A DNA stretch of 64,000 bases from Anaerolineae bacterium (GTDB lineage: Bacteria; Chloroflexota; Anaerolineae; Anaerolineales; Anaerolineaceae): contig JABLWW010000011.1 in assembly GCA_013178295.1 (NCBI GenBank), forward strand, positions 1 to 64,000, given 5' to 3'. Below the pieces are notes generated by a model. It was given only the letters and a program-made list of their open reading frames with translations, was not told where the DNA came from and ran no database searches. Shown piece by piece: positions 5,959 to 28,832 of this stretch. Positions within the stretch are counted from its first letter, which is position 1. The number at the start of each line of letters is the position of its first letter. A program made the position numbers and the translations under genes.

Positions 5959-5999
5959 AGTTTTGACAGGTGCATGTAACAATCAAGGAGATTTCTACA

Positions 6000-8099
6000 A
6001 TGGCTATCATGGATAAAGAAGCAGCAAGGACAATCGAAAACGTTTCGGCGCTCATTGAGGAACAAGGACTGACCAAAGAAGAGCTGGTTACCATGCTGCG
6101 ACAGATCATGGAAATTCGGGTTTTTGAGAATAATATTGCCAATTTGCTCAGCAAAGCGGTTCTTAAGGGTGCCTCGCATCTATATGCAGGGGAAGAAGCT
6201 GTTGCAGTTGGCGCAGTGGCTGCGTTGCGTGATGATGACTTAATCACCTCAACACACCGTGGGCATGGCCATGCCCACGCTCATGGTGATCGGGCAGCCA
6301 AGACTCCCGAGGGGAAACAGCAGCATTACAACCGTATGATGGCGGAGGTGTTGGGCAAAGCTGGCGGCTACTGCAAGGGCAAAGGCGGCTCAATGCACAT
6401 TGCTGACGTGGAGCATGGCAACCTGGGGGCGACCGGTATTGTCGGCGGTAATATTCCTGTGGCGGTGGGCGCTGCGCTGGCGCAGAAGTTGATGAAGAAT
6501 GACCGGGTGGTGCTGTGCTTTTTTGGCGATGGTGCATCCAACACGGGCAACTTTCACGAGTCGCTCAACATGGCAGCGCTGTGGGATTTGCCAGTGGTGT
6601 TTGTTGTAGAGAATAATCAATATGCCATGTCGGTACCCTGGAAGAAAGCCAGCAAACTGCAAAGCATCTCGGCGCGCGCTGTTGCGTATGGCATTCCCGG
6701 TGAGACGGTGGATGGGATGAACCCGCTTACTGTTCGGGGGGCTGTTCTAAAGGCGGTGGAGCGTGCCCGTCGTGGAGAGGGACCCTCCTTGATTGAGTGT
6801 CAGACCTACCGCTGGTTTGGGCATTCGCATTCTGACCCGCGAGCCTACCGTACCCGTGAGGAGGAAAACGAGTGGAAACAGCGCGACCCGTTCAAGAAGT
6901 TTCGCGAAGATCTGAAGATTGCTGGCATCCTGACCGAAGCTGAGGCAGAGGCGCTGGAACAGGAGGTCAACCGCAAACTCGAGACCGCCATGCAGTTCAG
7001 CGAGGCTTCTCCTGAACCCGGTCCCGCCGATCTGGAAACGGATGTCTTTGCCCCTTCAGTCTGGACAAAGCAGGATGTGGAACGTGAGGCTGTACTGCGT
7101 CAGCGCGTGCGTACCGATCCCAACATGCGTCAGATTTCTTACTCGCAGGCGCTGGTAGAAGCCATGCGCGAGGAGATGCTCCGCGATGAGCGTGTCTTTA
7201 TCTTTGGAGAAGATGTCGGGCTGTATGGCGGCGCGTATGGTGCCACGCGCGGTTTGTTTGAAGAGTTTGGCGAATGGCGGGTGATTGATACCCCCATTTC
7301 TGAAGCCACGATTGGCGGTGCGGCGGTCGGCGCGGCAATGGCTGGTATGCGACCGGTGGCTGAGATTATGTATGTAGATTTTACTCCGCTGGCAATGGAT
7401 CAGATTGCCAATCAGGGCGCCAAAAACCGCTATATGTTTGGCGGTAAGACTACGGTGCCCATGGTCATTCGTACTGAGGGGGGCGCTGGGCGCGCTATCG
7501 CTGCGCATCACTCGCAGAGCCTGGAATCGCTGTGGACACATTTCCCCGGGATTTATGTTGTGATGCCCGCCACGCCTTATGATGCCAAAGGGCTGCTTAA
7601 GGCCGCTATACGCGATGATAACCCGGTCATGTTCATTGAGCACAAGATGCTTTACAAGGAAAAGGGTCCTGTCCCTGAAGAGGACTATGTGATTCCTCTG
7701 GGCGTCGCCGATATCAAACGCCCGGGGCGCGATGTGACCCTGGTCAGCTACTCGCGCATGGTGTTGCGCAGTCTCGAGGCAGCTGAAATCCTGGCAAAAG
7801 AAGGCATTGATGTTGAAGTGATTGACCTGCGCACACTTAAACCGCTGGATATTGATACTGTAATTGCTTCGGTCAAGAAAACCGGACGGTTTGTCGGGGT
7901 GACAGAAGCTTATGAGAATACCAGCTTTATCAATGAGGTCATGGCGCAGGTGAATGAGCTGGCATTTGACTGGCTGGATGCGCCGATGGTGCGGGTTGCT
8001 TCGGCGAACGTTCCCGTGCCGCGGGCAGAAGTTCTGGAAGACCTGGCAATACCCAACGTTGGGCGGATTGTGGAAGCCTGCAGAAAGGTGATGAGCTGA
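6000..8099 (+). CDS. Fused 2-oxoacid/acetoin dehydrogenase E1 (alpha-beta), TPP-dependent
   Basis: A 699-residue fusion of the two E1 chains that are usually separate genes. Residues ~25-345 are the alpha chain: the TPP/Mg motif runs from GDGASN (~176) to VVENN, with the later YRWFGHSHSD segment. Residues ~375-699 are the beta chain (VFIFGEDVGLYGG, RTEGGAGRAIAAHH, and a C-terminal transketolase domain with DLRTLKPLD). E1 decarboxylates pyruvate, another 2-oxoacid or acetoin and passes the acyl group to the lipoyl arm of E2. The ATG at 6000 has AAGGAG 9 nt upstream. The stop overlaps the E2 start (TGATG). Substrate cannot be settled; fused E1 occurs in both acetoin- and pyruvate-type complexes. 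Confidence 0.9.
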   Translation: MAIMDKEAARTIENVSALIEEQGLTKEELVTMLRQIMEIRVFENNIANLLSKAVLKGASHLYAGEEAVAVGAVAALRDDDLITSTHRGHGHAHAHGDRAAKTPEGKQQHYNRMMAEVLGKAGGYCKGKGGSMHIADVEHGNLGATGIVGGNIPVAVGAALAQKLMKNDRVVLCFFGDGASNTGNFHESLNMAALWDLPVVFVVENNQYAMSVPWKKASKLQSISARAVAYGIPGETVDGMNPLTVRGAVLKAVERARRGEGPSLIECQTYRWFGHSHSDPRAYRTREEENEWKQRDPFKKFREDLKIAGILTEAEAEALEQEVNRKLETAMQFSEASPEPGPADLETDVFAPSVWTKQDVEREAVLRQRVRTDPNMRQISYSQALVEAMREEMLRDERVFIFGEDVGLYGGAYGATRGLFEEFGEWRVIDTPISEATIGGAAVGAAMAGMRPVAEIMYVDFTPLAMDQIANQGAKNRYMFGGKTTVPMVIRTEGGAGRAIAAHHSQSLESLWTHFPGIYVVMPATPYDAKGLLKAAIRDDNPVMFIEHKMLYKEKGPVPEEDYVIPLGVADIKRPGRDVTLVSYSRMVLRSLEAAEILAKEGIDVEVIDLRTLKPLDIDTVIASVKKTGRFVGVTEAYENTSFINEVMAQVNELAFDWLDAPMVRVASANVPVPRAEVLEDLAIPNVGRIVEACRKVMS

Positions 8100-9472
8100 T
8101 GGCAGAGGAGTTATTTATCCCAAAGCTTGGTCAGACGGTAGAGACCGTTACTCTGATAGCCTGGAAAGTTGAAGATGGTGCAAAGGTTGAATTTGGCCAG
8201 GAAGTTCTTGAGGTGGAGACGGATAAAGCGGTGTTTCCGGTAGAAGCCAATGCCAATGGGTATATTCATCTTGGCCCCTATAAAGCCGGGGATGTGTTGC
8301 CGGTGTTAACGGTGGTGGCAATCATTGGCAAGCAGGATGAGAAGTTTGCCGTTTCTGCCGCTCCGGCAGTGGGCGCGGAGGAGCTTGAGAAGGCGGCTAC
8401 AGAGGAAAGCGCCCCGTCAAGGGCGGTGGGCGCTGTGCAGCCTTCTTCATTGCCCCAGGCTGTTCAGGAGGGCGGAAGGGAGGTGCCTTTTGCCTCACCG
8501 CGGGCGCGCAGACTGGCTGTTGAAAAGGGGGTTGATGTGCGACAAGTTTCGCCCACTGGCGGGGGCGGGGTGCGGGTTGTTGAGAAGGATGTGGTCGCTT
8601 ATCTGAGCCGCCAGCCTAAAGCCACCCCCTTAGCGCGGCGTATTGCTGAGGCGGAAGGACTTGACTTAAGTGCTCTGAATGCTGGCGAGGGCGTCATCAC
8701 CAAAACGGATGTGTTGGGCGCGGTGAAAGCAGGCGGCGCCGTGCAGTCTGCTCCGCTTCCTATCTCTGCTGAAGGGGATGTACGCGAGCGTATCCCCCTC
8801 AAAGGCGTGCGTGGCATTATCGCTGAGCGGATGGCTGTCAGCGTGCATACCACTGCGCGCGTGACAATGTTTATGGATGCTGACGCGACCGAGTTAGTGC
8901 GCTTTCGCAAGCGGCTTAAAGAGCGCTATGAGAAGGAGTGGGACTTTTCTCCCGGTTATAACGAACTGCTGGCGAAGATTTGCGCTTCTGCTCTACGACG
9001 TTATCCTTATATGAACGCCCGCCTTGTGGAAGATGCTATCGAACATCTGGCGCATGTCAATATTGGTATCGCTGTGGATACCGATCGCGGGCTGCTGGTG
9101 CCGGTGGTGCGCGATGTGGATGCCAAAGGGCTGCGGCAAATTGGCGAAGAGTTCCGCCAGTTAGCCGAACGGGCACGCAGCGGACGCTCGCAGTTGGATG
9201 ACATCAGCGGTGGGACGTTCACCATCACCAATCTTGGAATGTATGACATTGATTACTTCACGCCGGTGATTAACCTGCCGGAGGCAGCTATCCTTGGAGT
9301 GGGACGTATTGTGCCCCGTCCGGTATACATAGGGGATGAACTGATGCGCCGCGAGATGATGACCCTTAGCCTGGTTTTTGACCATCGTCTGGTGGATGGC
9401 GCTCCTGCGGCGCGCTTTCTGCAATATATACGTGATCTGATTGAGGAACCAGCTTTGCTTGGCGTTCTTTGA
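8099..9472 (+). CDS. Dihydrolipoamide acyltransferase (E2) with tandem subunit-binding domains
   Basis: A 457-residue E2. An N-terminal lipoyl domain (1-80) carries the lipoyl lysine in EVETDKAVF (Lys43). Two peripheral subunit-binding domains follow: ~132-172 (ASPRARRLAVEKGVDV ... GGGGVRVVEKDV) and ~177-210 (TPLARRIAEAEGLDL ... GVITKTDVLGAV). The catalytic domain (~225-457) has the DHRLVDG active-site motif (His ~429) and NLGMYDIDYF. E2 forms the core and transfers the acyl group to CoA. Most E2s have one subunit-binding domain. It overlaps the E1 stop by one base. No E3 gene (lipoamide dehydrogenase) follows; a terminator does. Confidence 0.93.
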   Translation: MAEELFIPKLGQTVETVTLIAWKVEDGAKVEFGQEVLEVETDKAVFPVEANANGYIHLGPYKAGDVLPVLTVVAIIGKQDEKFAVSAAPAVGAEELEKAATEESAPSRAVGAVQPSSLPQAVQEGGREVPFASPRARRLAVEKGVDVRQVSPTGGGGVRVVEKDVVAYLSRQPKATPLARRIAEAEGLDLSALNAGEGVITKTDVLGAVKAGGAVQSAPLPISAEGDVRERIPLKGVRGIIAERMAVSVHTTARVTMFMDADATELVRFRKRLKERYEKEWDFSPGYNELLAKICASALRRYPYMNARLVEDAIEHLAHVNIGIAVDTDRGLLVPVVRDVDAKGLRQIGEEFRQLAERARSGRSQLDDISGGTFTITNLGMYDIDYFTPVINLPEAAILGVGRIVPRPVYIGDELMRREMMTLSLVFDHRLVDGAPAARFLQYIRDLIEEPALLGVL

Positions 9473-10157: not shown

Positions 10158-11786
10158 ATGAACAATCACCCCCCGCTTTTGAGTATCTCTCCGACTGATT
10201 TTGGATGTGAAATTTACTGGACGGGCGCTGCCAGCAGTGTGGCTTTTGACCTGGAAAGTGTACGAAGATACCTGCTTCAGCTGGAGCAGCCTTTGTGGGT
10301 GGTCAGACAGAATGGTCATTTGGGAGTGAGCGGTGAGGGCAGACTGGCGATTGCATCTGCGCCGGATACTCTCCCGTTGGAGGCGTTCACCCCGGCTTTA
10401 CCTCCGGAGCGGCTTGGCAATCCGTCTTTTTGTCAGGCGTACGGTACGCGCTATGCCATGTATGCGGGCGCAATGGCAAACGGAATTGCCTCTGAAGAGA
10501 TGGTCATCGCTTTGGGCAAAGCCGGGTTGATGGGGTCGTTTGGGGCGGGGGGGTTATCCCCGGCTCGCATAGAGGATGCTATCGTGAAGGTAAAGGAAGC
10601 GCTTCCTGATGGCCCCTATGCGTTTAATTTGCTAAACAGCCCAAATGAACCTGCTCTGGAACGGCGGACGGTTGAGCTTTACCTGAAACATGGCGTCCGT
10701 GTGGTGGAGGCTTCTGCTTATCTGGCGCTGACCACCAATCTGGTACATTACCGCGCTGCTGGGCTTTCTCTGAGCGACGACGGGCAGGTAGTCATTCGAA
10801 ACCGTGTCATTGCCAAGCTTTCGCGCAAAGAGGTGGCGCGCAGATTCTTTGAGCCTCCCGCGGCGGACATTCTCAACCAGCTGGTTGCCGATGGTCGTAT
10901 CTCTGCCCAGCAGGCTGAACTGGCGCAGCGCGTTCCGATGGCGGATGATATCACGGCGGAAGCCGATTCGGGTGGTCATACCGATAACCGCCCGCTGGTA
11001 TGTCTTTTACCGGCGCTACGGGCACAGCGGGATGAGTTCCAGCGCAAGCACCAGTTTGCGCAGATGGTGCGGGTTGGGGCTGCGGGCGGGATTGGTACAC
11101 CAGCGGCTGCCCTGGCGGCTTTTTCTCTGGGAGCAGATTATGTTGTGACCGGATCGGTCAATCAGGGGTGTGTGGAGGCGGGCGCGTCGCAGCATACCCG
11201 TACCCTTCTGGCGCAGGCGGAGATGACTGATGTGGCAATGGCGCCCGCTGGAGATATGTTTGAGATGGGCGTTAAGGTGCAGGTACTCAAACGCGGGACG
11301 ATGTTTGCCATGCGGGCGCAGAAGCTCTATGAACTGTACAACCGCTATGAAAGTCTGGAAGAGATACCGGATAAAGAGCGCGAAAAACTTGAGACACAGG
11401 TTTTCAAGATGAGCTTTGAGAAAGTTTGGCAGGAGTGTGAGCGTTTCTTCAGTGAGCGTGATCCTGCGCAGATTGCCCGTGCCACCCAGAACCCCAAGGA
11501 TAAAATGGCGCTGGTCTTTCGCTGGTATCTGGGGCTTTCTTCGCGCTGGTCAAACTGCGGCGAAAAGGGGCGCGAGATGGACTACCAAATCTGGTGTGGG
11601 CCGGCCATGGGGGCGTTTAATGACTGGGTGCGCGGCACAGCACTGGCAGATCCGACAAACCGCCGTGTCGTGGATATTTCGCGGCATATCTTAACCGGGT
11701 GTGCGTATCTTCAACGACTCCGTTCGTTGGAAATGCAGGGGATACGCTTCGAGCCTTCCCTTTTGCACTATATCCCTGAGGAATAA
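10158..11786 (+). CDS. pfaD: PfaD-family trans-acting enoyl reductase
   Basis: A 542-residue protein matching the PfaD family (2-nitropropane-dioxygenase-like FMN TIM barrel) in length and landmarks: an N-terminal extension, GLMGSFGAGGLSPARIEDAI (~127-146), RVGAAGGIGTPAA (~303-315), DYVVTGSVNQG (~327-337) and a helical C-terminal part. PfaD proteins work in trans as the enoyl reductase of polyunsaturated-fatty-acid and related iterative polyketide synthases. The synthase ~850 nt away has no ER domain of its own, so this gene likely supplies it. GAGGA lies 7 nt before the ATG. The gene points toward the synthase operon (convergent), so the two units are transcribed separately. Confidence 0.9.
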   Translation: MNNHPPLLSISPTDFGCEIYWTGAASSVAFDLESVRRYLLQLEQPLWVVRQNGHLGVSGEGRLAIASAPDTLPLEAFTPALPPERLGNPSFCQAYGTRYAMYAGAMANGIASEEMVIALGKAGLMGSFGAGGLSPARIEDAIVKVKEALPDGPYAFNLLNSPNEPALERRTVELYLKHGVRVVEASAYLALTTNLVHYRAAGLSLSDDGQVVIRNRVIAKLSRKEVARRFFEPPAADILNQLVADGRISAQQAELAQRVPMADDITAEADSGGHTDNRPLVCLLPALRAQRDEFQRKHQFAQMVRVGAAGGIGTPAAALAAFSLGADYVVTGSVNQGCVEAGASQHTRTLLAQAEMTDVAMAPAGDMFEMGVKVQVLKRGTMFAMRAQKLYELYNRYESLEEIPDKEREKLETQVFKMSFEKVWQECERFFSERDPAQIARATQNPKDKMALVFRWYLGLSSRWSNCGEKGREMDYQIWCGPAMGAFNDWVRGTALADPTNRRVVDISRHILTGCAYLQRLRSLEMQGIRFEPSLLHYIPEE

Positions 11787-12639: not shown

Positions 12640-15600
12640 TTAGTTACTCCCTCCCATCCAGGTTTGAAAAGGCTTTAGCAGCTCCTGCTCAATTGGATAA
12701 GGCAGGGGAGAAGTGCGGTACTCTTTGATCTCCAGGTAGAGATTGCCGGTGGCGTCCAGCACGCGGGCGTCGAAGATCAGACTGCCTTCAGCGCTTGGGT
12801 GCGGTGTTACCTCAGCATAGATGGGAGTATCGTTGCTGGGGCGGCAGTTATAGAGGGTGAGGTCGCCAATTGAACTGGGCAGCCCAAGGATGCCGGTTTT
12901 GCCTGCTTCCCAGATACCCGCGGTCTGAAAACAAAGTTCAACCAGGATGGGGATCAGCAAGTCGGGGCGCTGCTGTGCAATCATTGCTGGCAGCTCGGTG
13001 CGCATTTTCCCGACAACGTGTTCACCGGATTTTTGTACTCCTTCCAATATCTGGAACGAAGGTCCGTGGAAGTACAGGCGATAGATGTCTTCGGTTTTGA
13101 CCATCTCACCACCGTTCCAATCGGGTGGGTTGCTGTGTGCCTTTTGCAATTGGTTGGCTGGTTGCATATATACCCTGCCGCTGAAATGACAGAGATGCTC
13201 AATTTTGCCGGTGCGGCGCGCCAGGTCGGATTCGAGGGTAGCGTAAGCTACAAGTCCATCCGCCTGGCGGAACATCTGCGCTTTCCAGGTAATACGGCGC
13301 GGCTCATTGCGATAAAACTTGAAGGGCACCAGAAAGCGGACATCTTCCAGACGGGTCACTTCAAAATTCTTCTTTGGAGAAGCAAGAACGGAGGCAATAT
13401 GTCTGGCAGCAATTGAAAAACCTTCGATTCCCATCACACCTGGCAGAACAGGGATACCGTTCAGAGCATGGTCTTTGAGCAAGGGGTCACTTTGCGGGTC
13501 GAGTTCGGCTTCCAGCAGAATTCCTTCTTTGAGGTTAAAGCCAGTCAGCTGGCTGAGCATTTTGTGGGCGGGTTTTCCTGCGCGCAGGGCGGTGTTGGCG
13601 CGCATGATGTTAAGCCCTGCATCCGGGCAACGTTCTGCCTCCAACATCCCCAGTGAACCAGCCAGAATGACTTCGCTGTCTGTTCCGTGCAGCAGTTCCT
13701 GCCGTACCAGCGGTGCAGCCTGTGATGGGGCAAGCATGTCAATGCCTGCCCGTTTCATGATTTCGGGGATATAACCGCGGCTTGCCATGCCCACTTCAGC
13801 CCACGCGCCCCAGTCAAGCGAGAGCCATTTGATGGTGGGATATTGGTGTTTGAGCGCTGAAGCAAGTTTGTTGAGCAAGTCATTGGCAGCGCTATAATCA
13901 CTTTGTCCGCTGTTGCCAAATCTCCCGGCTACGGAGGAGAAAAACACCACTGCGCGTGGCAGAGCACAAGCGGATTCCAGCCATTTGAACAGATTGAAGA
14001 ACCCATCTGCTTTGACACTGAAGATCTGGCGGAATTCCTCTTCGGGTTTGCTTTCCAGCTTGCGGCTGCGTTCCATGCCAGCCGCGTGAATCAGCACATC
14101 AATGTGCCCTTCCTCATAGACCACCTGTTGGACGGCTTTCTGTACTGACGCCGGGTCGGTTACGTCGCAGACGAGATAACGCACTTTTGCACCAGCGCTT
14201 TGAATACGCTCCATTGCATCCAGGGTGGCAGCGCCGCGCTCAAGGTATGCCAGTTGTTGTTCGATCTGTGCCGGTGTGGGGCGTTTGCCTTCGCTTGAGA
14301 GGCGCTGCATCAATTCTGCGCGCAACTGATTGCGATCTTTGCGCAGCAGCGCCAGGTTGGGGTCATTGGAAGAGGGGAGCTTCGAGCGTCCCAACAGGTA
14401 GAATATGCCGCCGCTTGACTGGGCTAAATCTGCCACAATGGGAGCAATAATACCGCCTGTTCCGCCGCTGATGAGGTACACAGTGTTCTCGTCCAGTGAC
14501 AGACTGATCTCTGTGGGCAATTCTTTTTCTTGCAGCACAGGGGTAAAGCGCAGTTCGTCTTCCCAGCCCACTTCGACAACGCCGGGGTCATGCAGCGTTT
14601 CCTCGATCAAGCGCGAGGCGATGGTTTTAACAGGGGTGTTAGCGGCAAAGTCTACCACTTTCACCAGCGTGTCAGGGCGTTCCCACGCAATTGCTTTGGC
14701 AAAGCCGCTAACCGCGCCACCAAGGGGAGCAGTTGTTTCAAACAGCGGACAACCCAGAAACCCCCCCATGCGCGTGGCGCATACCAGGAAGGGATTGCCA
14801 CGTATTGATTTCATGACCTGGAACAGCTTATAGATGCGTTCTTCAAGCGCCTTGTGCCACTCCTGTGAACGCATGTCTTGCAAATTGGGTTCGGCGTCCA
14901 GTGCTGGCAGGAAATACACGCCGTGAATATCGCCTTCGGTTTGCCACGCTTCAATTTGCTCTGCCAGATTGTGTTGATCAGGTGTGAGTTCTAAAATCTG
15001 CGCTTTCTTTGCTTTGAGCTGGCGCGAAAGAGTATCTCCTGTCTTTCCGTAATCCTTGATAATCAAGATACGGCTGTTGGCATCCAGGGTGATACCGGTT
15101 TCAACGCACAAATCCAGCTTGGGACGCAGCACGGGAACAGCTACACGCCGCTTGACTGCTGCTCCAGCAGGTGTAGCTTGCTCTTCAGCAGGTTGGAGGG
15201 CTGGCGTGGGTTGCATTTCGGTAGAAATTTCCTTGGTTGCAGGTGTTGCTTCTGTTTGTTTTGGCTGGGTAGCTTCTTCGACAAAGCGGATGACCTTTGC
15301 CAGGGTATTATAATCTGCCAGGCGCAAATCTTCACGGCGCGGGATGTTGTAGAGACCGCGCACGGAGGCGAATAGTTCTGCCTGTTTGACGGTGTCAATC
15401 CCCAAATCGCCTTCCAGATCAAGCTCAAGGTCAAGCATTTCGACGGGGTAGCCAGTCTTCTCGCTGACCAGTGCCAACACTTTGTTTTTGACATCCTCAC
15501 TGGCAGGGGATTGGACAACTGCTGTTTGCTCTTGCGTCGTGGGGGGCTGCTCGGGCACTTGTGTAGTACCAACCGGTTGACTGACTGGGGTTTGTCCGGC

Positions 15601-18600
15601 TGATTGAGTAGCCTTTTCAACGAAACGGATGACCTTTGCCAGGGTATTATAATCTGCCAGGCGCAAATCTTCACGGCGCGGGATGTTGTAGAGACCGCGC
15701 ACGGAGGCGAATAGTTCTGCCTGTTTGACGGTGTCAATCCCCAAATCACCTTCCAGATCAAGCTCAAGGTCAAGCATTTCGATGGGATAACCAGTTTTCT
15801 CGCTGACCAGTGCCAATACTTTGTTTTTGACATCCTCACTGGCGGGCGGCTGAGAAGGCACAGCGGGTTGCACTACGGGGTTGTGCGGGGCGCTAGGGTG
15901 CGCTGCCGGGGTTGGTGTTGCCGCTTCGATGACTGTTTGCGATGCGGGTTTATCCTGAACAACGCCGACAGGGGTTGTGTGGGGCGGAGCCTCCATTGCC
16001 CATAAAGTGGGGATCTGCCCATATTGCCAAGTGGGTTGCGCTGGAGTTTTGATGGGAGGACCATTGTGGCGGATGCGCAGGGTGCGCTGAACAACCTCAA
16101 GCTCAGCTTTCTCGTATCCTGCTACTGCTGCAAGCCAATGTTGATATTGCTCTTGCTGAACACGTTCACCTGCACACTCGATTTTGCGCGTCAATGTCAT
16201 GGCAATTTGTGAACCGAAACCTGCTCCAAGCCGCAGGGCGTACCGCACAGGATACTTTCCACCCCGCGAAAGATTCAAGTTGCCCAAGTCCGGATCAGGT
16301 TCAAATCCATCTTGAATATTGGCGATTGGCGGCACAATGCCGAACTCCAACGCCTTTACGGCGACGACATCTTCCACGCCTACACCCATTGTGTGTCCGG
16401 TGAAACCTTTGGTATTGGCGATCACAACTTGATCGGCGCGTTCGCCGAAGGTGTGGCGCAATGCCTGAATTTCTGCTGATGCGCTGCCGCCTCTTGCCGG
16501 TGTGTATGTCTCGTGTGAGACGAAAACAGTGGCGGGTGCGATTTCGTCGCGGCGGATGCCAAAGCGCTGCTCGGCGGTGGCAATCAGCCGGTTCATTACC
16601 TCGCTGACATGACAGATATCCAGGCGCGTGCCGTGAAACGCGCTGTTGGCGATGTGGGTAGAGAGGATTTCACAGATACCCTTCATTCCGCGTTCGCGCA
16701 CGGCGTCTTCTGACTCGACGACCAGCGCCGCAGCGCCCATTCCCATAATCATCCCATTGCGACGGCGGTCAAAGGGCAAGATAGCCTTACGCGGATCTCC
16801 TTCTATCGTTGCGGCGCCGCTTGCCATCATGCCGGTGCCCACCCAGGAGGTCAGGCTGCCATCTGTAATGTCGTCGCCGCCCACAATCACAACCCTGCGA
16901 CAGCGGCCGTTGCGGATCCAGTCCTCGGCGATGGCAACCGCGTGTGTGGTGGAGGCGCAGGCAGCGTTGACATGCGTGTTTGGACCACGCGCGCCAATGT
17001 GCTCAGCAAATTGCGAATGTCCCATTGCCAAAACGCGAAAGACAAATTTGCGGTCAAACTGATAATTTAGCTTGGAGAGTTGCTCCTCCAATTCAGCAAT
17101 GCGGGCGTTGAAGATATTTTGCAGATCGCTCTGCCCGGCAGGCAGGAGCGCCTGAATATGGCGTAACTCGTCAATCTTCTGTTGCAAGCCGCGGTAGGCA
17201 TAGAAGCGCTCGGCTTCCAGTGCCATCTCATCCAGCCCCGGGAAAGCCGAAGCAAAGATGACACCCGTCTCATCTGCCAGCGCTTCGGGCAACCGCCAGC
17301 GGTCGGGGAGCAGGGTGCCCTTGCTGGTTTGGCGATACGCCATCACTAGCGGAATACCAGCATCGCGCAGCGCTTCAATACCGGCGGCTATTGCCAGGCG
17401 GGTGGAGATATCGGTTGCCTCAAGGCGCTCTCTGGGGATGCCGAACTCTTCTTCAGGATTAAACTTTCCGCCTTGTCCTGCCAGCTTGACGGTTTGCTGA
17501 ATGTCATTAATCCACTCCATTGTGGCGCCGTTGTCGCTTTTTACCAGACGGGTCACGCGCTTTTCCAGCATGGCATTGCGTTTTTCCTCACTGAAAGGCT
17601 CAATCAGTATCTCTCCCTGTAGAATGCGCATGATGTTGTTATCATCGAACACGTTTCGGTTGCGTCCAGGCAGTCCCAGTCCGGCGCCGCTGATGACGAC
17701 CGATCCGGTGAGTGGTGCATAGCCCTTTGGCGAAGATAATACTGTAACGGTTGATGCAGTTGTGTTGGCGGCAGCGACTACCGGCTGTGATATCTGGATA
17801 GGTGCCGACGTTTGCTGGCTCTCGTTGCTGCCCAACCCGGCGGCGTATAGCCCACACAGCGCTTCATTCAAGCTGGTTAAGGCGCCTTTACGTGGATGAT
17901 TGCTTCCCAAAATGACGACATCATCGTAGTTTTTGAGATTATCAGTTGCCAGTGCATTCAATACCCGCTTCGGGCCGCATTCAACGTAGATGCGCACGCC
18001 AGCGTTGTAAAGGGTTTGCATACTTTTTACCATCTGCACTGGCGCGGCAATCTGCTGTGCAAGCAAGTCAATGATTTGCTCGCGGTTTGTTGGATACAGT
18101 TCACCAGTAACGTTGGCGACAATCGGAATACGGGGGGGATTAATCTTCATGCGCGAGATGACCTGCCGCAGCGGTTCACTGGCTGGCGCAACGATTTTGG
18201 TGTGGAAGGCGTGGGAAACGGGTATTTTGGTTGCCTGAAAACCGGCTTTTGTGAAAATTTCCAGGGCAGCGTCAATGGCAGCTGTTGTGCCACCCACGAC
18301 GGACTGCATTGGGCTGTTGATATTGGCAATAACCGCATAACCGTCAATTTTCGTGAGAACTTCTTCCACCTCATTGAGCGGCGCGGATACCGCCAGCATG
18401 GCGCCATTGTCTTCTACTGAGACACGACTCATCTCACGCCCGCGGGCGCTGACTACTTGCAGAGCTTCGGGGAAGCTCAACACCTCTGCAGCCACCAACG
18501 CGGCATACTCGCCCAGACTATGCCCAATGACGTAGTCGGGCTTAAACCCATATTTTTGCAACACGCGCAGCAAAGCCACGTTTGCTGTAAGCATTGCTGG

Positions 18601-20973
18601 CTGGGTAATGGTTGTGTTACGCAGTTCTTTTTCTGCCTGCGCCAGTGTGTTTTCATCGCCATCTACAAAGATATAGCTGGTCAGCGGTTTGCCAAGAATG
18701 GGCAGCATGACCTCGTCTGCTTCGTTGAAGGTTTGTTTTACGAGCGGCTCAGCATCTGCCAGCTCGCGCAGCATGTTGACATACTGTGAACCCTGCCCGG
18801 GGAAGAGAAAAGCGGTTTTGGCGGGTTTTCCGCTGCCGCGAAAGACCCCCTGTGCGGTCAGGGCAGACCAGATACCCGCAGTGGGGTTTTCCAACGCTTT
18901 GAGGGCTTTTTCACCGCGCTTGATCAGTTCCTCGGCGTCGGCAAAATCAATCGCCAGACGCTCCTCGTGCCTCACTTCTTCCGCGTTTGGCACGCGGGAG
19001 GGTGGCAACGTCCCCTGGCGCGCCTGCTGCAAAACCGTGTTTAGCTTGGCTTGTAGCTCTGCGTTGCTGTTGCCGCTGAGAAACAAGAGACCATTAAAAG
19101 GCTTCAGCTCTCCGGTTGCGCTTTCGAGTTTTGCAGGAGGAGTGGGGGATATGTCAGTGGCGGCAGGTGAGGGATTTGCTGCCTGGCTGGGAGCGGACTG
19201 CCGCGCCTCAAGCGCCTGTGCCACAAAGCCAATGACTTTGGATAGTGTGTTATAGTCTGAAAGACGCAAATCTTCGCGGCGCGGGATGTTGTATAAACCA
19301 CGCACCGCCGCGAAAAGCTCGGCTTGCTTGACGGTGTCAATGCCCAAATCACCCTCCAGATCAAGTTCTAAATCCAGCATGTCCACCGGGTAGCCGGTCT
19401 TTTCGGAAACCAGGGCAAGGATTTTCGCTTTGATTTCTTCGCTGGCGGGGGGTGCGGAGGGCTGAACGACAGCAGGAGATTCAGTTGTGAGGGGCACAGC
19501 AGCATTGGCGGCTGCTGGTATGGCAACTGAGGGATAGACCTTGTTGTCGGTTAACATTCCCGGCAGGTACTCTTCGACAACAACATGGAAGTTTGTCCCA
19601 CCAAAACCAAACGAGCTTACGCCAGCGCGGCGAACCTCTCCTGGTGGCACCTCCCAGGGACGCAGCTCGGTATTGGGATAGAACGGCAAATGAGCAAAAT
19701 CAATGTTGGGATTGGGGCGCTCAAAGTTTGCTGTTGGCGGCAAGACATGATTATGTAGTGCCAGCACTACCTTGAGCAGCCCGGCGGCACCAGCGGCGCT
19801 TTTAAGATGTCCGATATTTGATTTGACTGAACCCAATGCGATTTTGCCGACGGGCAGCCCGAATGGAGATAAGACGGCATTGAGGCTGTTGACCTCAGTT
19901 ACGTCCCCTACGCGTGTGGAGGTGCCGTGCCCTTCGATTAACCCGGCGCTGGCTGGCGACAAACCGGCGTCTTTCCAGGCACGTTCGATAGCGCGCTGCT
20001 GACCAAGCGGGTTGGGAGCAGTGATGCCTTTGCCTTTGCCGTCACTGCTTCCGCCGACACCGCGGATGACAGCGTAAACCTTATCGCCATTTTTCTCGGC
20101 ATCTGTCAGACGTTTGAGCAGATAGACGATCGCTCCTTCACCCATGACAAAGCCGTTTGCCCCATCGGCATACGGGCGAGAGCCGTCTGGGCTGAGCGCT
20201 CCAATTTTGCTAAACTTGACGTACGCTTCGGGCCCCATGCCGCGGTCAATGCCGCCGGTCAGGACGGCATCAAATTGGTGTGCCAGCAAACCTTCGATAG
20301 CATTTTGCAACGCTGCGATTGATGAGGCGCAGGCGGCATCGGTAACGTAATTGGGGCCTGAGAAATTGAACACATTTGCCACACGTCCGGCAATGATGTT
20401 AGAAAGTTCGCCTGGCATGGTGTCCTCGGTGATATCCGAAATTTTTGAGCGGATGCCGGTCTGCATCCCCTCTATCAGTGAGCGGCGCACCGCCTCTGGA
20501 AGAGCTTGGAATTCCGGCACCTGGGCAAGAATATCCAGATACTCGGGCAGGTAGATGCGCATGGTGGTACGATAGTGCATTTCCCCGCCCAGCGCGTTGC
20601 CAAAGATCACCGCCACGCGCTCCGGGTCGAGCGGTCGCTGAGGGTAACCGTAATCATCCAGCGCCTGCCGCGTGGCGGCAATTGCCCACTGTTGGGCTTC
20701 GTCCATCACCTTCAAGACCTTTGGTGGGATGGCGATGCCATATTTAAATGGGTCAAAGCGATAGCCCTTCACCCAAGCGCCAATTTTACTGTAGGTTTTG
20801 TCAGGCACAGATGGGTCGGGATCGTAGTAATGCTCAACTTTCCAGCGCTCGGGCGGCACTTCGCTGATGGAATAGCGCCGGGTCTTGATATTCTGCCAGA
20901 AAGTAGGCACGTCCAGTGCATCGGGGAGGATGGCTCCCAGCCCTACAACTGCAATAGCTTTATTTTCTATCAT
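12640..20973 (-). CDS. Multidomain PUFA/polyketide-type synthase, KS-ACP-AT-KS-ACP-ACP-KR-DH
   Basis: A 2777-residue megasynthase. Domains: PfaA-like ketosynthase 1-470 (Cys215 in DAACASS, His349 in EGHGTST, His389 in SNIGH); carrier ~510-590; acyltransferase ~720-1040 (Ser819 in GHSLGEY, HAFH motif suggesting malonyl-CoA); a second, divergent ketosynthase ~1095-1620 (Cys1339 in NAACAST, His1487 in SHETYTP, His1527 in FTGHTMG) with a coiled-coil-like insert; carriers ~1700-1785 and ~1815-1900; ketoreductase ~1930-2440 (ISGGTGGI, Tyr2360 in SDYSAAND); dehydratase ~2460-2777 (His2502 in DHALNGIPVLPG, with Glu for Asp in ELCFQ). All three carriers read DLGIDTVKQAE, with Thr547, Thr1748 and Thr1861 where Ser normally holds phosphopantetheine. 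No ER or thioesterase is present. GGAGATA precedes the ATG. The general class is secure; the product is unknown. Confidence 0.93.
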   Translation of the reverse strand: MIENKAIAVVGLGAILPDALDVPTFWQNIKTRRYSISEVPPERWKVEHYYDPDPSVPDKTYSKIGAWVKGYRFDPFKYGIAIPPKVLKVMDEAQQWAIAATRQALDDYGYPQRPLDPERVAVIFGNALGGEMHYRTTMRIYLPEYLDILAQVPEFQALPEAVRRSLIEGMQTGIRSKISDITEDTMPGELSNIIAGRVANVFNFSGPNYVTDAACASSIAALQNAIEGLLAHQFDAVLTGGIDRGMGPEAYVKFSKIGALSPDGSRPYADGANGFVMGEGAIVYLLKRLTDAEKNGDKVYAVIRGVGGSSDGKGKGITAPNPLGQQRAIERAWKDAGLSPASAGLIEGHGTSTRVGDVTEVNSLNAVLSPFGLPVGKIALGSVKSNIGHLKSAAGAAGLLKVVLALHNHVLPPTANFERPNPNIDFAHLPFYPNTELRPWEVPPGEVRRAGVSSFGFGGTNFHVVVEEYLPGMLTDNKVYPSVAIPAAANAAVPLTTESPAVVQPSAPPASEEIKAKILALVSEKTGYPVDMLDLELDLEGDLGIDTVKQAELFAAVRGLYNIPRREDLRLSDYNTLSKVIGFVAQALEARQSAPSQAANPSPAATDISPTPPAKLESATGELKPFNGLLFLSGNSNAELQAKLNTVLQQARQGTLPPSRVPNAEEVRHEERLAIDFADAEELIKRGEKALKALENPTAGIWSALTAQGVFRGSGKPAKTAFLFPGQGSQYVNMLRELADAEPLVKQTFNEADEVMLPILGKPLTSYIFVDGDENTLAQAEKELRNTTITQPAMLTANVALLRVLQKYGFKPDYVIGHSLGEYAALVAAEVLSFPEALQVVSARGREMSRVSVEDNGAMLAVSAPLNEVEEVLTKIDGYAVIANINSPMQSVVGGTTAAIDAALEIFTKAGFQATKIPVSHAFHTKIVAPASEPLRQVISRMKINPPRIPIVANVTGELYPTNREQIIDLLAQQIAAPVQMVKSMQTLYNAGVRIYVECGPKRVLNALATDNLKNYDDVVILGSNHPRKGALTSLNEALCGLYAAGLGSNESQQTSAPIQISQPVVAAANTTASTVTVLSSPKGYAPLTGSVVISGAGLGLPGRNRNVFDDNNIMRILQGEILIEPFSEEKRNAMLEKRVTRLVKSDNGATMEWINDIQQTVKLAGQGGKFNPEEEFGIPRERLEATDISTRLAIAAGIEALRDAGIPLVMAYRQTSKGTLLPDRWRLPEALADETGVIFASAFPGLDEMALEAERFYAYRGLQQKIDELRHIQALLPAGQSDLQNIFNARIAELEEQLSKLNYQFDRKFVFRVLAMGHSQFAEHIGARGPNTHVNAACASTTHAVAIAEDWIRNGRCRRVVIVGGDDITDGSLTSWVGTGMMASGAATIEGDPRKAILPFDRRRNGMIMGMGAAALVVESEDAVRERGMKGICEILSTHIANSAFHGTRLDICHVSEVMNRLIATAEQRFGIRRDEIAPATVFVSHETYTPARGGSASAEIQALRHTFGERADQVVIANTKGFTGHTMGVGVEDVVAVKALEFGIVPPIANIQDGFEPDPDLGNLNLSRGGKYPVRYALRLGAGFGSQIAMTLTRKIECAGERVQQEQYQHWLAAVAGYEKAELEVVQRTLRIRHNGPPIKTPAQPTWQYGQIPTLWAMEAPPHTTPVGVVQDKPASQTVIEAATPTPAAHPSAPHNPVVQPAVPSQPPASEDVKNKVLALVSEKTGYPIEMLDLELDLEGDLGIDTVKQAELFASVRGLYNIPRREDLRLADYNTLAKVIRFVEKATQSAGQTPVSQPVGTTQVPEQPPTTQEQTAVVQSPASEDVKNKVLALVSEKTGYPVEMLDLELDLEGDLGIDTVKQAELFASVRGLYNIPRREDLRLADYNTLAKVIRFVEEATQPKQTEATPATKEISTEMQPTPALQPAEEQATPAGAAVKRRVAVPVLRPKLDLCVETGITLDANSRILIIKDYGKTGDTLSRQLKAKKAQILELTPDQHNLAEQIEAWQTEGDIHGVYFLPALDAEPNLQDMRSQEWHKALEERIYKLFQVMKSIRGNPFLVCATRMGGFLGCPLFETTAPLGGAVSGFAKAIAWERPDTLVKVVDFAANTPVKTIASRLIEETLHDPGVVEVGWEDELRFTPVLQEKELPTEISLSLDENTVYLISGGTGGIIAPIVADLAQSSGGIFYLLGRSKLPSSNDPNLALLRKDRNQLRAELMQRLSSEGKRPTPAQIEQQLAYLERGAATLDAMERIQSAGAKVRYLVCDVTDPASVQKAVQQVVYEEGHIDVLIHAAGMERSRKLESKPEEEFRQIFSVKADGFFNLFKWLESACALPRAVVFFSSVAGRFGNSGQSDYSAANDLLNKLASALKHQYPTIKWLSLDWGAWAEVGMASRGYIPEIMKRAGIDMLAPSQAAPLVRQELLHGTDSEVILAGSLGMLEAERCPDAGLNIMRANTALRAGKPAHKMLSQLTGFNLKEGILLEAELDPQSDPLLKDHALNGIPVLPGVMGIEGFSIAARHIASVLASPKKNFEVTRLEDVRFLVPFKFYRNEPRRITWKAQMFRQADGLVAYATLESDLARRTGKIEHLCHFSGRVYMQPANQLQKAHSNPPDWNGGEMVKTEDIYRLYFHGPSFQILEGVQKSGEHVVGKMRTELPAMIAQQRPDLLIPILVELCFQTAGIWEAGKTGILGLPSSIGDLTLYNCRPSNDTPIYAEVTPHPSAEGSLIFDARVLDATGNLYLEIKEYRTSPLPYPIEQELLKPFQTWMGGSN
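15287..15504. repeat. Direct repeat copy 1 (third carrier domain)
   Basis: This 218-bp segment encodes the third carrier domain and is about 97% identical at DNA level to 15626-15843, offset by exactly 339 bp (113 codons). Only about six differences are seen, most of them at third codon positions. This indicates recent duplication or gene conversion. Confidence 0.85.
15626..15843. repeat. Direct repeat copy 2 (second carrier domain)
   Basis: Partner of 15287-15504. The first carrier domain near 19335 is clearly related at protein level but has diverged in DNA, so the duplication of carriers two and three is younger. Confidence 0.85.
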
Positions 20974-22696: not shown

Positions 22697-23284
22697 TTAT
22701 ATGGGTGTGAGTGGCATGACCCACCTGAGCAGCGCGCTGGCACCCAGAACGATCACCAGACGATTGATGATTTTTCCAAGCCAACACCAGAAGAAGAAGG
22801 TGGGGGCAGGCACGCGCAGAATACCAGCCGCAAGACCGGCGGTGTCAAACAGCGGGTTGGGTATGGCTGCCATCAGCGTGATTACGACTTTGCCGTATTT
22901 TTTCATCCAACTTTCAATCCGTTCCAGCCAGACCGAATTTTCGATCAGCGTGTTCCCACCGCGTCCGGCAGCGTAGGCGAACAGCTCGCCCAGAGAAGCT
23001 GCTGTACTGGCGACCAGCGCAAGCAGAATGGGGTGAAAGAGGGGTGCCACTGCCATCGTTACTGCCGAGCCAGGGATGGGTACCATGACTGAGGCGTTGG
23101 CAATAAATTCGATGAGGAAGATCCCCAAATAGCCAAAGCGCTGGAGCATTAATATCTGCTCGCGCATTCGGTAGGCATAGAGGGTCATGGCAACGATCGC
23201 CGCGATCGCCAGGATTGCGATCAGGCGCGCTGCCAACAGAGTGGGGGCTTTGCGGTTTTGAAGGCTTTTCTCTTGTGGCTGCAT
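22697..23284 (-). CDS. DedA/VTT-domain membrane protein 1
   Basis: A 195-residue membrane protein of the DedA/VTT ('SNARE-associated Golgi') family. It has an N-terminal anchor helix (~20-40), a re-entrant region with GYLGIFLIEFIANASV and VPIPGSAVTMAVAP, the family segment AASLGELFAYAAGRGG (~94-109), and two more helices. Known relatives move or scramble lipids or affect membrane potential. It is a clear paralogue of the next gene upstream (190 residues). It sits between that paralogue (78 nt away) and the FAD oxidoreductase on the same strand. The substrate is not predictable. Confidence 0.85.
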   Translation of the reverse strand: MQPQEKSLQNRKAPTLLAARLIAILAIAAIVAMTLYAYRMREQILMLQRFGYLGIFLIEFIANASVMVPIPGSAVTMAVAPLFHPILLALVASTAASLGELFAYAAGRGGNTLIENSVWLERIESWMKKYGKVVITLMAAIPNPLFDTAGLAAGILRVPAPTFFFWCWLGKIINRLVIVLGASALLRWVMPLTPI

Positions 23285-23362
23285 AACATTAATATACCCT
23301 GAAGCGGGGCAGGCTGGAAGGTTTGGGAAACATCGGGGGCGGTTTCTCTTGGCGCGCGGCGG

Positions 23363-23935
23363 CTAGATGGGCAGTAACCACCTCAACGTGCTACTGGCGA
23401 TCAAAATCAATGCCAACCGGTTGATAGCTTTTCCGAGAAGGCAGAAAACAAAAAATTTCCACAGGGGGATTTTCAACATCCCTGCGGCAATACCAACGGC
23501 ATCGAAAAACGGGTTGGGGATGGCAGCAGCGAGTGTAATGATGGTGTTGCCGTAGTGCTGCATCCAACGTGCGGCGCGTTCAACCCATGGGCGGTTTTCA
23601 ACAAGACTTGCTCCCCCTTGCCCAAGGGCATAGCCGGTCATTTCGCCTAGCGACGCGGCGGTGCTGGCAGTGATCATCAAGAGGAACGGGTGAAAGAGCG
23701 GTGCAACCGCAGCAGTGATCACCGAAGCGGGGATGGGGGTCCAGGCGAAGATGGTGGCATTACCGATAATTTCAATCAGAAAGATGCCCGGGTAGCCGTA
23801 TTGTTGCAGAAGCTCAATCTGTTCACGCATCTGGTAGGCATATATGGTCAGCGAAACCACCAAAAGGGTAGAAAGGACGCCAATGACAATGGAAGTCCAG
23901 GCGCGCCTGGTGGAAGGGGTTGCAGAAATGTTCAT
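23363..23935 (-). CDS. DedA/VTT-domain membrane protein 2
   Basis: A 190-residue paralogue of the neighbour, with the same plan: an N-terminal anchor, YGYPGIFLIEIIGNATIF, TPIPASVITAAVAPLFHPF, AASLGEMTGYALGQGG and PNPFFDAVGIAAG. The IPNP(F/L)FD motif is shared by both copies. The two genes arose by tandem duplication but have diverged substantially in sequence. It follows the DtxR-type regulator by 62 nt on the same strand and may be under its control. Confidence 0.85.
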   Translation of the reverse strand: MNISATPSTRRAWTSIVIGVLSTLLVVSLTIYAYQMREQIELLQQYGYPGIFLIEIIGNATIFAWTPIPASVITAAVAPLFHPFLLMITASTAASLGEMTGYALGQGGASLVENRPWVERAARWMQHYGNTIITLAAAIPNPFFDAVGIAAGMLKIPLWKFFVFCLLGKAINRLALILIASSTLRWLLPI

Positions 23936-23997
23936 CGGTATTCCTCGGTATGTGTTCTAACTACAGTGCAGATATACATGACGTGTGGCAATTTGCC

Positions 23998-24690
23998 TCA
24001 CCCTGATGTATCAGACTCAACGAAGATATTTTCAGCCAAAGCCCAGCCCAGAGAGAGAATACCTTTCTCGGTGCGCAGAGAAATCGTTTGATTGAACGCC
24101 AGGCTTTCAAGGATTTCTATCTTTGCGCCTGGCAATAAGCCGTTTTGTTCCAGGTATTTGAGAGTCTCGCGGCTGTCCTCGATGGTTTCGTGGATACGGC
24201 GGATGGTTACGGTTGTGCTATGGGGCGCTTTTGTCAGCGGAAGCCAATGTGAGGTCAGTTCTTCGTGGTCGGGCAGCGGGTTGCCATGCGGACAGGTAGA
24301 GGGGCGGTTCAGGTTATCGTTTAATCGCTTCTCAACGTTATCCGAGAGCGTGTGTTCAATCTGGTGTGCCTCGCTATGTGCCTCTGACCAGGGCACGTTC
24401 AGTGTTTGTACTAGCAGCCACTCGGTCAGCATGTGTCTGCGGATGACCGAGTGAGCGGCTGTTTCTCCTGCGGGGGTCAAAAGAATTTGTTTGTGTCGAT
24501 CAAAAATGATCCACCCGTCGCGCGCCATGCGCTTGAGGGTCAGCGTTGCGGTTGGAAGGGAGACGTTGAGCAACTCTGCCAGGCGTGTGGCAATGACTTT
24601 TTTTCCATCTCTTTGCAGACGGTGAATGGTTTCCAGGTAATCTTCAACGGTGGCGGTTGGTCGGACTTGGGTTGTTTTCACCGTTTTCAT
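23998..24690 (-). CDS. DtxR/MntR-family metal-dependent repressor
   Basis: A 230-residue regulator. A winged HTH (~14-70: VEDYLETIHRLQ, TRLAELLNVSLPTATLTLKRM) is followed by the metal-binding dimerisation domain with HMLTEWLLVQTL, EAHSEAHQIEH and the CPHGNP segment. A C-terminal FeoA/SH3-like domain follows (~150-230: LPGAKIEILESL). The family senses Fe(II) or Mn(II) and represses uptake or homeostasis genes; which metal applies here cannot be decided. A DtxR-like inverted repeat lies 39 nt upstream. It is probably the first gene of an operon with the two DedA proteins and the FAD oxidoreductase. Confidence 0.92.
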   Translation of the reverse strand: MKTVKTTQVRPTATVEDYLETIHRLQRDGKKVIATRLAELLNVSLPTATLTLKRMARDGWIIFDRHKQILLTPAGETAAHSVIRRHMLTEWLLVQTLNVPWSEAHSEAHQIEHTLSDNVEKRLNDNLNRPSTCPHGNPLPDHEELTSHWLPLTKAPHSTTVTIRRIHETIEDSRETLKYLEQNGLLPGAKIEILESLAFNQTISLRTEKGILSLGWALAENIFVESDTSG

Positions 24691-25273: not shown

Positions 25274-28200
25274 TTAGATAGTATCTTTGCGTTTCATCAA
25301 GCCCAGAATGATCAGGAATTCTCCAAAGGAGATCAGCAGGGTGTACAGCCAGCGCTGGGCTGCTGTGCCGCGAAAGGCGTGCCCATAATCATCATAGACC
25401 AGGGATAAAATCGTTTCTGCTGAACCGATGGCTTCCAGGCGGTTTTTCTCCCAGTCTTCTATCGTTTCGGCATAGGCTTCCATTTGGTCTTCGTAATCGC
25501 GGAATTGCTGTTCAACAGCGTTGCCATAGGACTCGTATGCGTCGGTCTGTGCTTCGATGTGCTCGGCAATTTGTGTTTTGACAATGTACTGGTACTCGTC
25601 AAACTGCTGCATGGTGTCTTCTTTGTAAGTGTTAAATTGGGCTTCGCGCGTCTGACGATATTCTTCCATCTGCTTTTCGGTGTTAATCTTGTATTGATTG
25701 GCGCGGTAGTGGGCTTCGCGGGCGGTTTCCTCCTCGATGGAGCGACCGGAGTTGGCTGCATCGGTGGCGACCACAGCCGGATTTGGAACAGGGTAGGGCA
25801 GGCGCGTGGGGGTGTTAATGGGGGTTGGCGTTGGCAAGGGGGTGGGTGTAGCCCACTGCGTGGGTGTGTTGAGCGGCGTGGGTGAAGGCAGCCGTGTTGG
25901 CTCAGAGGGTCTGGGAGGCTCTCCCTGGGCAAGTGCGATGCGTGCGTTCTCGTCATAGAAGTCCTCGGAGCGAATGCCCGGAAAGTTTGCGCAATTGATG
26001 AAAATATTAGGCCCCATGCAGAAGCATTTTTCTTTTTGTTTCGAGGTAAGCTTATTGCGCATTTCTGGCGGCAGATTCCAGCATGGGTCTTTGGTGAGTG
26101 CATCCCCCATACCAGTCGAAACAATGAATGCTTCAAATGTCCAGCGTGTCGAGATGAAGGGGCTGATAACCTTGCCCAACGGGATTTTCTCAAGCGGCAT
26201 CAGCATCCCGGCAAAGAGGAACTGCGGTACCAGAAAAGCGATCAACACAATCTGTGCCGAATTCTGGTTGGGTACCAGTGCAGAGATGACCAGCCCCAGC
26301 ATATATCCGCAGGCAACGCCAAGAATCATGGTGATTAACAATGCCAGGTACGCACCTGGGCCACTGACTGCTGGTCTGACCAGCAGAACCGCAAAGAGCA
26401 ATACAAAAAAGCCATTGTAGATTGATAACGTGAGTCCAATCCAGACTTTTGAGAGCACATAAGGAAGTATCTTCAACCCTACAGCACGCTCGCGTTTATA
26501 AATATCCGATTCTTTGACAATCTCGCGCATACTGCCCATGGCACCAACCAGGATTGCAATGACCGCTGTAATAAACCACATGCTCATGACCTTCATGCTG
26601 TCGCCGTGCACGGGGTCGAACAGGTTGCGTCCCCAGATGAAGTTCATCAGACCCAGCACAGGCGCCAGGGCAAGCGTCAGTCCCAGCGAGGCTTTGTCCT
26701 GCATCATGCATCTGATGGTGCGTGCAGAAAGGATGAGGAATTGCCGTATGGCGCCGATTCTGCGCCCGCGTTGTTGACGTCCTGCGCCAGCCATCTGTGT
26801 TTGACTGGGTGGCTGTTGATAGCGTGGCTGGATATATTTTGCGTAAGGGCTTTTCAAAAAGCGTTCGCGCCATTCTTCGGGCTTGCCACGTTTTTCGTCC
26901 TGAAGGATGCGGTAGATGTCGTCAAACTCCATATCTTTTTCTTTGCGTTCGCGGTCAGTGCGAAAACCGTCAAAGTAAATTAACGCCTCTTCGGGAGGGC
27001 CAAACCATGCCAGGTTTCCGCCTTTGGCAAGGATGATGGCGCGGTCGCAAAACATAACATTTTTTGTAGCGTGTGTGATGAGGATGATGGTACGTCCCTG
27101 ATCTGCCAGACGGCGCATTAGTTTCATCATTTCATACTCAGTCCCGGGGTCAAGGCCACTGGTTGGCTCATCCAGGAAGAAGAGGCGCGGTTTGGTCAGC
27201 AGTTCGACGCCGATAGAGACGCGCTTGAGCTGTCCTCCTGAGAGCTTTGAGATGGGCACGTCCTTGCGAAAGGTAAGTCCTAAATCCTCAAGTGTGTCTT
27301 CAACAGCTTTTTTTCTTTCGCTGGCTGTGGTATCTTTGGGCATGCGCAGCCGGGCGGAATAATCCAGCGCTTGGGTAGGGGTCAGCTCCATGTGAACGAT
27401 GTCGCGCTGGGGCACGTTGCCAATATCGTCGCGAAACATGCCATAGTTTTGGTAGAGATCAATCCCGTTGATCAGCACCTTGCCGTGCGTAGCGGGGCGG
27501 AAGCCGTTGATAGCGTCCATCAGTGTGCTTTTACCGGCGCCACTCATGCCGACCAGGGCAACGAATTCGTTGGGACCAATGCTGAGACTGATGTCTTTGA
27601 GCAAGTTGGTGTTTTTGGAAACCCATTTATTGACCCCTATGACATCAATGGCATAGCCCTCTTCAACAGCGGAGTGCTGCAACTCGTTGCCGGTGAAGTT
27701 CATCTGGTAAGGGCCAATTTTGATCACGTCACCGGGTTTGAGCCATACAGGGTCTTTGATAGGTGCCCCATTTACATAGACACCGTTGGCGCTATGTAAG
27801 TCGGTCAGGCGGGTGCGGGTGCCCATACGTTCAAATAGGGCATGGTAGCGGCTGACCATAGGATGATTAAGGACCAGTTGGTTATCGGCAGCACGCCCGA
27901 CGCTGAATCTTTCCTGTCCGGCAAGATTGATGCCCCCCAGCACCTGAAGCGGTGCCATCTGGCTGATGGCAATTTCTTCCACTGTTGAATCGGTTGGGGC
28001 AACGGGCGCCGAAAGCTCTTGTGTCTGTTTTGTTGGTGGATACGGCAATGCTGATGGCAAAGGCGCAGCGGAGACGATGGTCGCTGGTTGAGGCAGCACC
28101 AGCTCGAATGTCAAATCGCACACCTGAAAGGTATCGCCGGGTTTGATGGGATATGCCTGGTAGGGGGTGAGCTGCTGTCCATTTTGAAGAATGCCATTGC

Positions 28201-28792: not shown

Positions 28793-28832
28793 CCTTACAA
28801 CCTCAAAAAAGTGTGACTGTATTCGGTCTGTT

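Follow-up and report, generated by a model that had tools for sequence, protein, structure and literature searches.

Threonine at the phosphopantetheine site of PfaA-like carrier domains and a candidate dedicated transferase

The window analysed here is a stretch of 64,000 nucleotides from an Anaerolineae bacterium (assembly GCA_013178295.1, contig JABLWW010000011.1). It encodes a PfaA-like type I synthase in which all three acyl carrier protein (ACP) domains have threonine (Thr) in place of the serine (Ser) to which phosphopantetheine is normally attached. Carrier proteins are generally taken to use Ser universally for this attachment. Comparison with related sequences suggests that the three domains are very probably working ACPs, with a dedicated Sfp-type phosphopantetheinyl transferase (PPTase), here P0002, attaching phosphopantetheine to their Thr. 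Thr is nearly fixed among related carriers, PPTases of one group co-occur with them and adjoin or are fused to them, the predicted fold is that of a carrier and the catalytic motifs of the PPTase are retained. From these sequence comparisons we infer the Thr chemistry, the specificity of the PPTase and the lipid product of the synthase.

Threonine at the attachment site and its near-fixation

All three carriers share the motif GIDTVKQAE. The earlier note on this DNA had placed Thr, encoded by ACC, at residues 547, 1748 and 1861 (span 15391-19335), and re-reading of the open reading frame (ORF) matched this exactly. The domains score 25.6, 25.1 and 24.5 bits against the Pfam PP-binding profile (PF00550), above the curated cut-off of 20.8. 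At the start of helix II, where this profile has its attachment Ser, 3/3 domains have Thr, and GIDTVKQAE likewise replaces the GIDS-type attachment Ser expected of PfaA (TIGR02813) carriers. Profile alignments to solved carriers (PigH, 2ehs, 2fq0) place Thr on the attachment Ser, ungapped, in all three cases printed. In an AlphaFold2 model of ACP3, with a mean predicted local distance difference test score (pLDDT) of 91, helix II begins at residue 42 of 84, which by count is the Thr; the PDB matches listed for the model are mostly ACPs, with template modelling (TM) scores of 0.66-0.83 on the query. ACP2 and ACP3, already described in the earlier note as nearly identical, share 97% identity, and ACP1 and ACP3 share 84-85%. 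Because the copies are so closely alike, the three Thr sites are not independent events inside the synthase.

Near-fixation of Thr extends well beyond the window. In the DNA that we fetched, 365/367 distinct domains with the KQAE motif have Thr and 2/367 have Ser, a count based on the motif because to call the 366 Thr-type domains 100% Thr would be circular. The full set of 419 distinct carrier domains, which includes AcpP-type and canonical Pfa domains, divides into 366 with Thr, 52 with Ser and one with a gap. Ser domains outside the KQAE motif read SIKRV(E/D) in 28 cases and SLKQTE in two, and a further 20 are AcpP-like; the sole Thr domain outside the motif reads KLAD. Over genome contigs, a degenerate Ser/Thr pattern gave at least 230 matches in at least 118 loci and, among the matches listed, 230 Thr and 0 Ser, a figure biased by the Val fixed at +1. 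These listed matches use all four Thr codons (ACG 115, ACC 90, ACA 18, ACT 7). A single base change in any of them would yield Ser, and therefore the near-fixation goes beyond chance. A site-masked profile run on the listed loci, at least 118 in number, returned 273 Thr and two Ser domains. The loci with Thr carriers belong to 14 named phyla, one of them Heimdallarchaeota, and some further loci carry no phylum name. The earlier note had argued for selection on Thr from three copies and had proposed an alignment of homologues; with Thr nearly fixed across phyla, the argument now stands on far more than those three.

A pattern open to Ile or Val at +1 was run on two other groups. In the class to which G421 belongs it gave 118 Thr and two Ser, from 47/71 genomes; in the phylum that includes G397, a metagenome-assembled genome (MAG) of Acidobacteriota, it gave 51 Thr and no Ser, from 17/297 genomes. 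These counts were made by eye from matches and tables and are still conditional on KQAE and the codon set; Val encoded by GTG at -2 escapes the pattern, and the Ser domain of locus L115 was missed in this way. At residue +1, Val follows Thr in 366/366 domains and Ile, Leu or Met follows Ser in 52/52, in loci partly selected with a Val-containing pattern. Such strict coupling may matter for the phosphopantetheine arm or for the PPTase. Conservation over the aligned domains revealed no invariant Ser or Cys elsewhere in the carrier domain. Other well-kept hydroxyl residues (-21 Thr, -19 Tyr and +29 Thr) are common in canonical Ser-type carriers too. The number of Thr carriers per synthase reaches six, and some Chloroflexota genomes with a Thr synthase encode, in addition, a more distantly related synthase whose carriers are of the canonical Ser type.

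A tree of the ketosynthase (KS) domains was built from 85/96 rows, fragments and near-copies being left out. The Thr label requires three changes on it, and the fork uniting Thr rows with five Ser rows has a support of 93/89; rows L137, L139, L148 and L287 are labelled Thr by KS score, no Thr carrier being seen in their frame. The tree falls short of proof that Thr arose once. Drift or a pseudogene was considered and rejected, as all motifs searched in the synthase are present and Thr hardly gives way to Ser in any of the phyla covered. A private quirk of the window genome was likewise rejected, Thr carriers being found in many other genomes.

The accompanying transferase

As the earlier note had recognised, an Sfp-type transferase directly follows the synthase gene (P0002; 11888-12610, minus strand, PF01648). 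Across 41 aligned rows, R40, P80, H97, G115, D117, E137, W157, E161, K165 and G170 are invariant, E119 and K160 occur in at least 90% of rows, and the Sfp-type motifs (GxD.E, W..KE...K and His) are present. The model of P0002 (pLDDT 95) has 2c43 (AASDHPPT), 4mrt (Sfp-CoA-PCP), 2byd and 2cg5 as top PDB matches, and P0002 also matches Sfp by profile. It thus resembles Sfp/AASDHPPT-type PPTases in predicted fold and catalytic motifs, whereas a branch with strong support separates its group from the majority of the other Sfp-type enzymes that were sampled in the phylum. In the PPTase tree (112/140 rows after a coverage cut and duplicate removal), one branch with SH-aLRT 100 parts 21/22 PPTases unlinked to Thr carriers from 75/75 that are Thr-linked. 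The Thr label requires 14 changes on this tree, owing to 15 scattered unassigned rows, 14 of them on the Thr side; several of the latter are fused or adjacent to Thr carriers, a link not seen for L258, L272 and L297. Motifs that mark the group include KRRxxWLxGRxxAK and SISH in place of NxSH.

Among 301 Chloroflexota genomes, the window's included, a search with P0002 found 16 at ≥65 bits (next 54.1) and a residue-blind search for the carrier protein found 16 at ≥89 bits (next 57.8), both cut-offs being placed post hoc in score gaps. The two sets are the identical 16/301 genomes, 14/16 of which have both genes on one contig, and all close carriers in the loci read from them are Thr. Of the Thr regions fetched from Chloroflexota, 30/33 contain a PPTase that fits the profile of the group; two of the remainder (G122, G337) have a PPTase on another contig, and the third region is just 6 kb. 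Moreover, carriers and PPTase share one open frame in 8/20 chosen regions from other groups, and 7/8 of these show Thr alone by carrier profile. The 20 regions were hand-picked, favouring long PPTase frames, so that 8/20 is not a rate, and regions L285, L288, L290 and L291 are truncated at the edge of the fetched sequence. We propose that P0002, a member of the group found with Thr carriers, is a Thr-modifying enzyme. The earlier note had suggested such a transferase, and the co-occurring, adjacent or fused PPTases lend the suggestion comparative support, from which we infer modification of Thr.

Genomes with few carriers are informative here. In the window genome, a draft surveyed with carrier and PPTase profiles and limited to what these detect, a cut-off of E≤0.001 yields no carriers besides the three Thr domains and a single AcpP-like protein with Ser, and no PPTases besides an AcpS-like enzyme and P0002. 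Since the AcpS-like enzyme is there for the Ser AcpP-like carrier, P0002 is left without another visible client. In the Heimdallarchaeota MAG G406, also a draft and read within the same limits, a single chain of 3574 amino acids (aa; L283, 1397-12118) comprises a nitronate-monooxygenase-type (reductase-like) region, KS, acyltransferase (AT), a second KS (KS2), two ACPs, ketoreductase (KR), dehydratase (DH) and a C-terminal PPTase. At E≤0.05 the genome yields these two ACPs, both Thr, and no further carrier; the one PPTase at E≤1 lies in the same frame as both. The PfaD-like protein of the window gave no match to L283 at 1e-20; Pfam nonetheless shows the nitronate-monooxygenase-type region. A second Heimdallarchaeota genome, G420, is less clean, with three Thr carriers and one degenerate carrier in a fused synthase and a small Ser carrier on another contig. 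Outside G406, a related synthase with PPTase fused to it was also seen in the Heimdallarchaeota MAG of L287.

The synthase, its neighbourhood and known relatives

The domain order of the synthase, from Pfam and motifs, is KS - ACP1 - AT - KS2 - ACP2 - ACP3 - KR - DH, where KS2 resembles a chain length factor (CLF) with the Cys motif retained. Every active-site motif searched in KS, AT, KS2, KR and DH was found, the search excluding the second DH residue and the KR Lys. The whole protein scores 1042.8 bits against TIGR02813 (PfaA), above the curated cut-off of 1010.1. Convergent to it is a PfaD-like gene, whose product is probably the enoyl reductase (ER) of the synthase; a PfaD homologue is present in 16/33 fetched Chloroflexota Thr-synthase regions.

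Table 1. Positions of the synthase, its carrier domains and the associated genes in the window
Feature	Position	Strand	Basis or detail
PfaA-like type I synthase, 2777 aa	12640..20973	-	ORF, translation, Pfam, TIGR02813
ACP1, Thr carrier between KS and AT	19192..19443	-	Thr547, ACC at 19333-19335
ACP2, Thr carrier	15604..15840	-	Thr1748, ACC at 15730-15732
ACP3, Thr carrier	15265..15501	-	Thr1861, ACC at 15391-15393
P0002, Sfp-type phosphopantetheinyl transferase, 240 aa	11888..12610	-	PF01648, E=1.8e-17
PfaD-like enoyl reductase, convergent to synthase	10158..11786	+	TIGR02814, 677.5 bits (cut-off 449.25)

The region 5970-9472 (plus strand), which lies upstream of the PfaD-like gene, encodes components E1 and E2 of a 2-oxoacid dehydrogenase complex. 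At 22697-24690 (minus strand) lie two adjoining membrane proteins with VTT domains and a regulator of the DtxR family that has a FeoA domain, and at 25274-28912 (minus strand) a 1212-aa ABC transporter protein with three FHA stretches.

A close described architecture is the Type R secondary lipid synthase of Shulse and Allen 2011 (PMC3098273), given there as KS-MAT-CLF-ACP(3-6)-KR with a PPTase gene after it, with products uncharacterised, and reported in Acidobacteria, Elusimicrobia and Chloroflexi. As far as that description goes, the window synthase resembles it in being a PfaA homologue and in the PPTase gene downstream on the same strand. Its KS, AT, KS2/CLF, ACPs and KR may correspond to that order, although one of the three ACPs stands between KS and AT and a DH comes after KR. 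Neither "serine" nor "threonine" occurs in the main text of PMC3098273. For Type R the paper names, among others, Roseiflexus castenholzii and Elusimicrobium minutum. In the latter (L057, region L301) we found four Thr carriers and an adjoining PPTase, and it is placed among the Thr synthases. With PfaA of the omega-3 polyunsaturated fatty acid synthases the window protein shares the TIGR02813 score, tandem carriers, KS, AT and KR; however, canonical-type Pfa carriers in relatives read GIDSIKRV(E/D), with Ser, where the window has Thr, and the window synthase has its CLF-like KS2 in the same chain.

Alternative readings and implications

Under the reading that we favour, P0002 would move 4'-phosphopantetheine from CoA to the Thr hydroxyl of each carrier, and the loaded carriers would supply the usual iterative KS/AT/KR/DH cycle, complemented by a PfaD-type ER, to give a lipid. 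The PPTase group would have followed the Thr carriers across phyla.

Several observations weigh against this. Ser occurs in the KQAE background in three cases. Loci L093 (4070-4294) and L115 (7403-7636) each have one Ser domain, GIDSIKQAE and GVDSIKQAE respectively, between AT and CLF, in the same frame as two Thr domains after CLF, and G482 has one further Ser-Ile match. Ser thus is tolerated now and then at the Thr site, judging from the sequences. The earlier note had named Ser in matching domains of homologues as counter-evidence; it does exist, in these three rare cases, although the Thr carriers are not thereby accidental. At the position of the Ser in L093 and L115, L289 has Thr in a domain that is clearly similar by eye; this interchange of the two residues suggests that they share one function. 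Since the mixed synthases of L093 and L115 hold both types in one chain, they provide a natural control for comparing the loading of Ser and Thr. In the Myxococcales MAG G398 (L047, L279), the sole PPTase over the cut-off is like that of the Thr group and does not adjoin the synthase, and the carriers are three Ser and two Thr; this PPTase may modify both residues, in which case the group may not be Thr-specific. On the Thr side of the PPTase tree stand exceptions on long branches, namely L172, without Thr carriers, and L258 and L272, which are second PPTases of genomes with mixed synthases; L297 is also on that side, unassigned. A comparison of PPTase specificity residues gave group-specific positions but no convincing Thr pocket, and SISH-like residues occur in Ser-modifying PPTases too. 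Lastly, the chemistry of Thr loading is not generic, given that the S36T mutant of E. coli ACP is reported to resist modification.

If the Thr domains were degenerate or structural and stayed unloaded, the work would fall to a different carrier of the cell, one with Ser, either AcpP or a discrete ACP. This agrees with the description of E. coli ACP S36T as unmodified and without growth support (PMC3340395), with the Ser AcpP-like carrier of the window genome, with the existence of synthases that mix one Ser and two Thr carriers and with the degenerate carrier in one fused Heimdallarchaeota synthase (L378). However, decayed sites would drift, whereas there is scarcely any variation at Thr or at its neighbouring residues; moreover, up to six Thr copies are kept per synthase, and G406, in which no further carrier was detected, retains a PPTase within the chain that holds its Thr carriers. 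We consider this explanation improbable. A rather smaller chance attaches to the idea that the PPTase mainly serves other Ser carriers, its link to Thr carriers being hitch-hiking. G398, where such a PPTase is the only one found and stands beside Ser carriers, would fit, but in the window genome an AcpS-like enzyme is available for AcpP, no Ser carrier is seen in G406 and the co-occurrence is an exact 16/16.

Modification of the carriers at a residue other than the Thr of GIDTVKQAE is, in our view, very unlikely: the carrier domain has no other invariant Ser or Cys, and the well-kept -21 Thr, -19 Tyr and +29 Thr are shared with Ser-type carriers and lie 19 to 29 residues off in sequence. Direct acylation of the Thr hydroxyl, giving an oxyester carrier without phosphopantetheine, would explain why a hydroxyl is required that is not Ser. 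It would also leave the PPTase group without a role, despite co-occurrence and fusion, and the KS, KR and DH sites normally require a long thiol arm; we hold it the least likely of these explanations. Loading of Thr by the dedicated PPTase thus remains the reading that we prefer. Its benefit may plausibly be insulation from the housekeeping AcpS, because a Thr version of E. coli ACP is reported to remain unmodified.

Searches of the open-licence PMC literature brought up no account of phosphopantetheine linked to Thr. The Thr of the published DST motif lies after or near the Ser and is hence a different matter from an attachment Thr. The laboratory mutant S36T of E. coli ACP is described as unmodified and non-functional (PMC3340395) and as likewise inactive in a second study (PMC9456370), so that, as these accounts have it, Ser-to-Thr has served as an inactive control. 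The window family resembles that mutant in having Thr at the attachment site; the difference is that its Thr is natural and nearly fixed.

A natural family fixed on Thr would, if true, break the rule of Ser attachment, and the reading of a missing Ser as an inactive carrier would be wrong for the Thr-carrier synthases. It would also raise the question of how one PPTase accepts a secondary hydroxyl while E. coli ACP with Thr stays unmodified, and would offer a candidate orthogonal carrier/transferase pair for engineering. In its widest form, to which we give even chances, phosphopantetheinyl-Thr would be a second natural carrier code, used by lipid megasynthases of bacteria and Asgard archaea that form a deep family spanning phyla, with carriers loaded only by their co-inherited PPTase and insulated from AcpS and AcpP.
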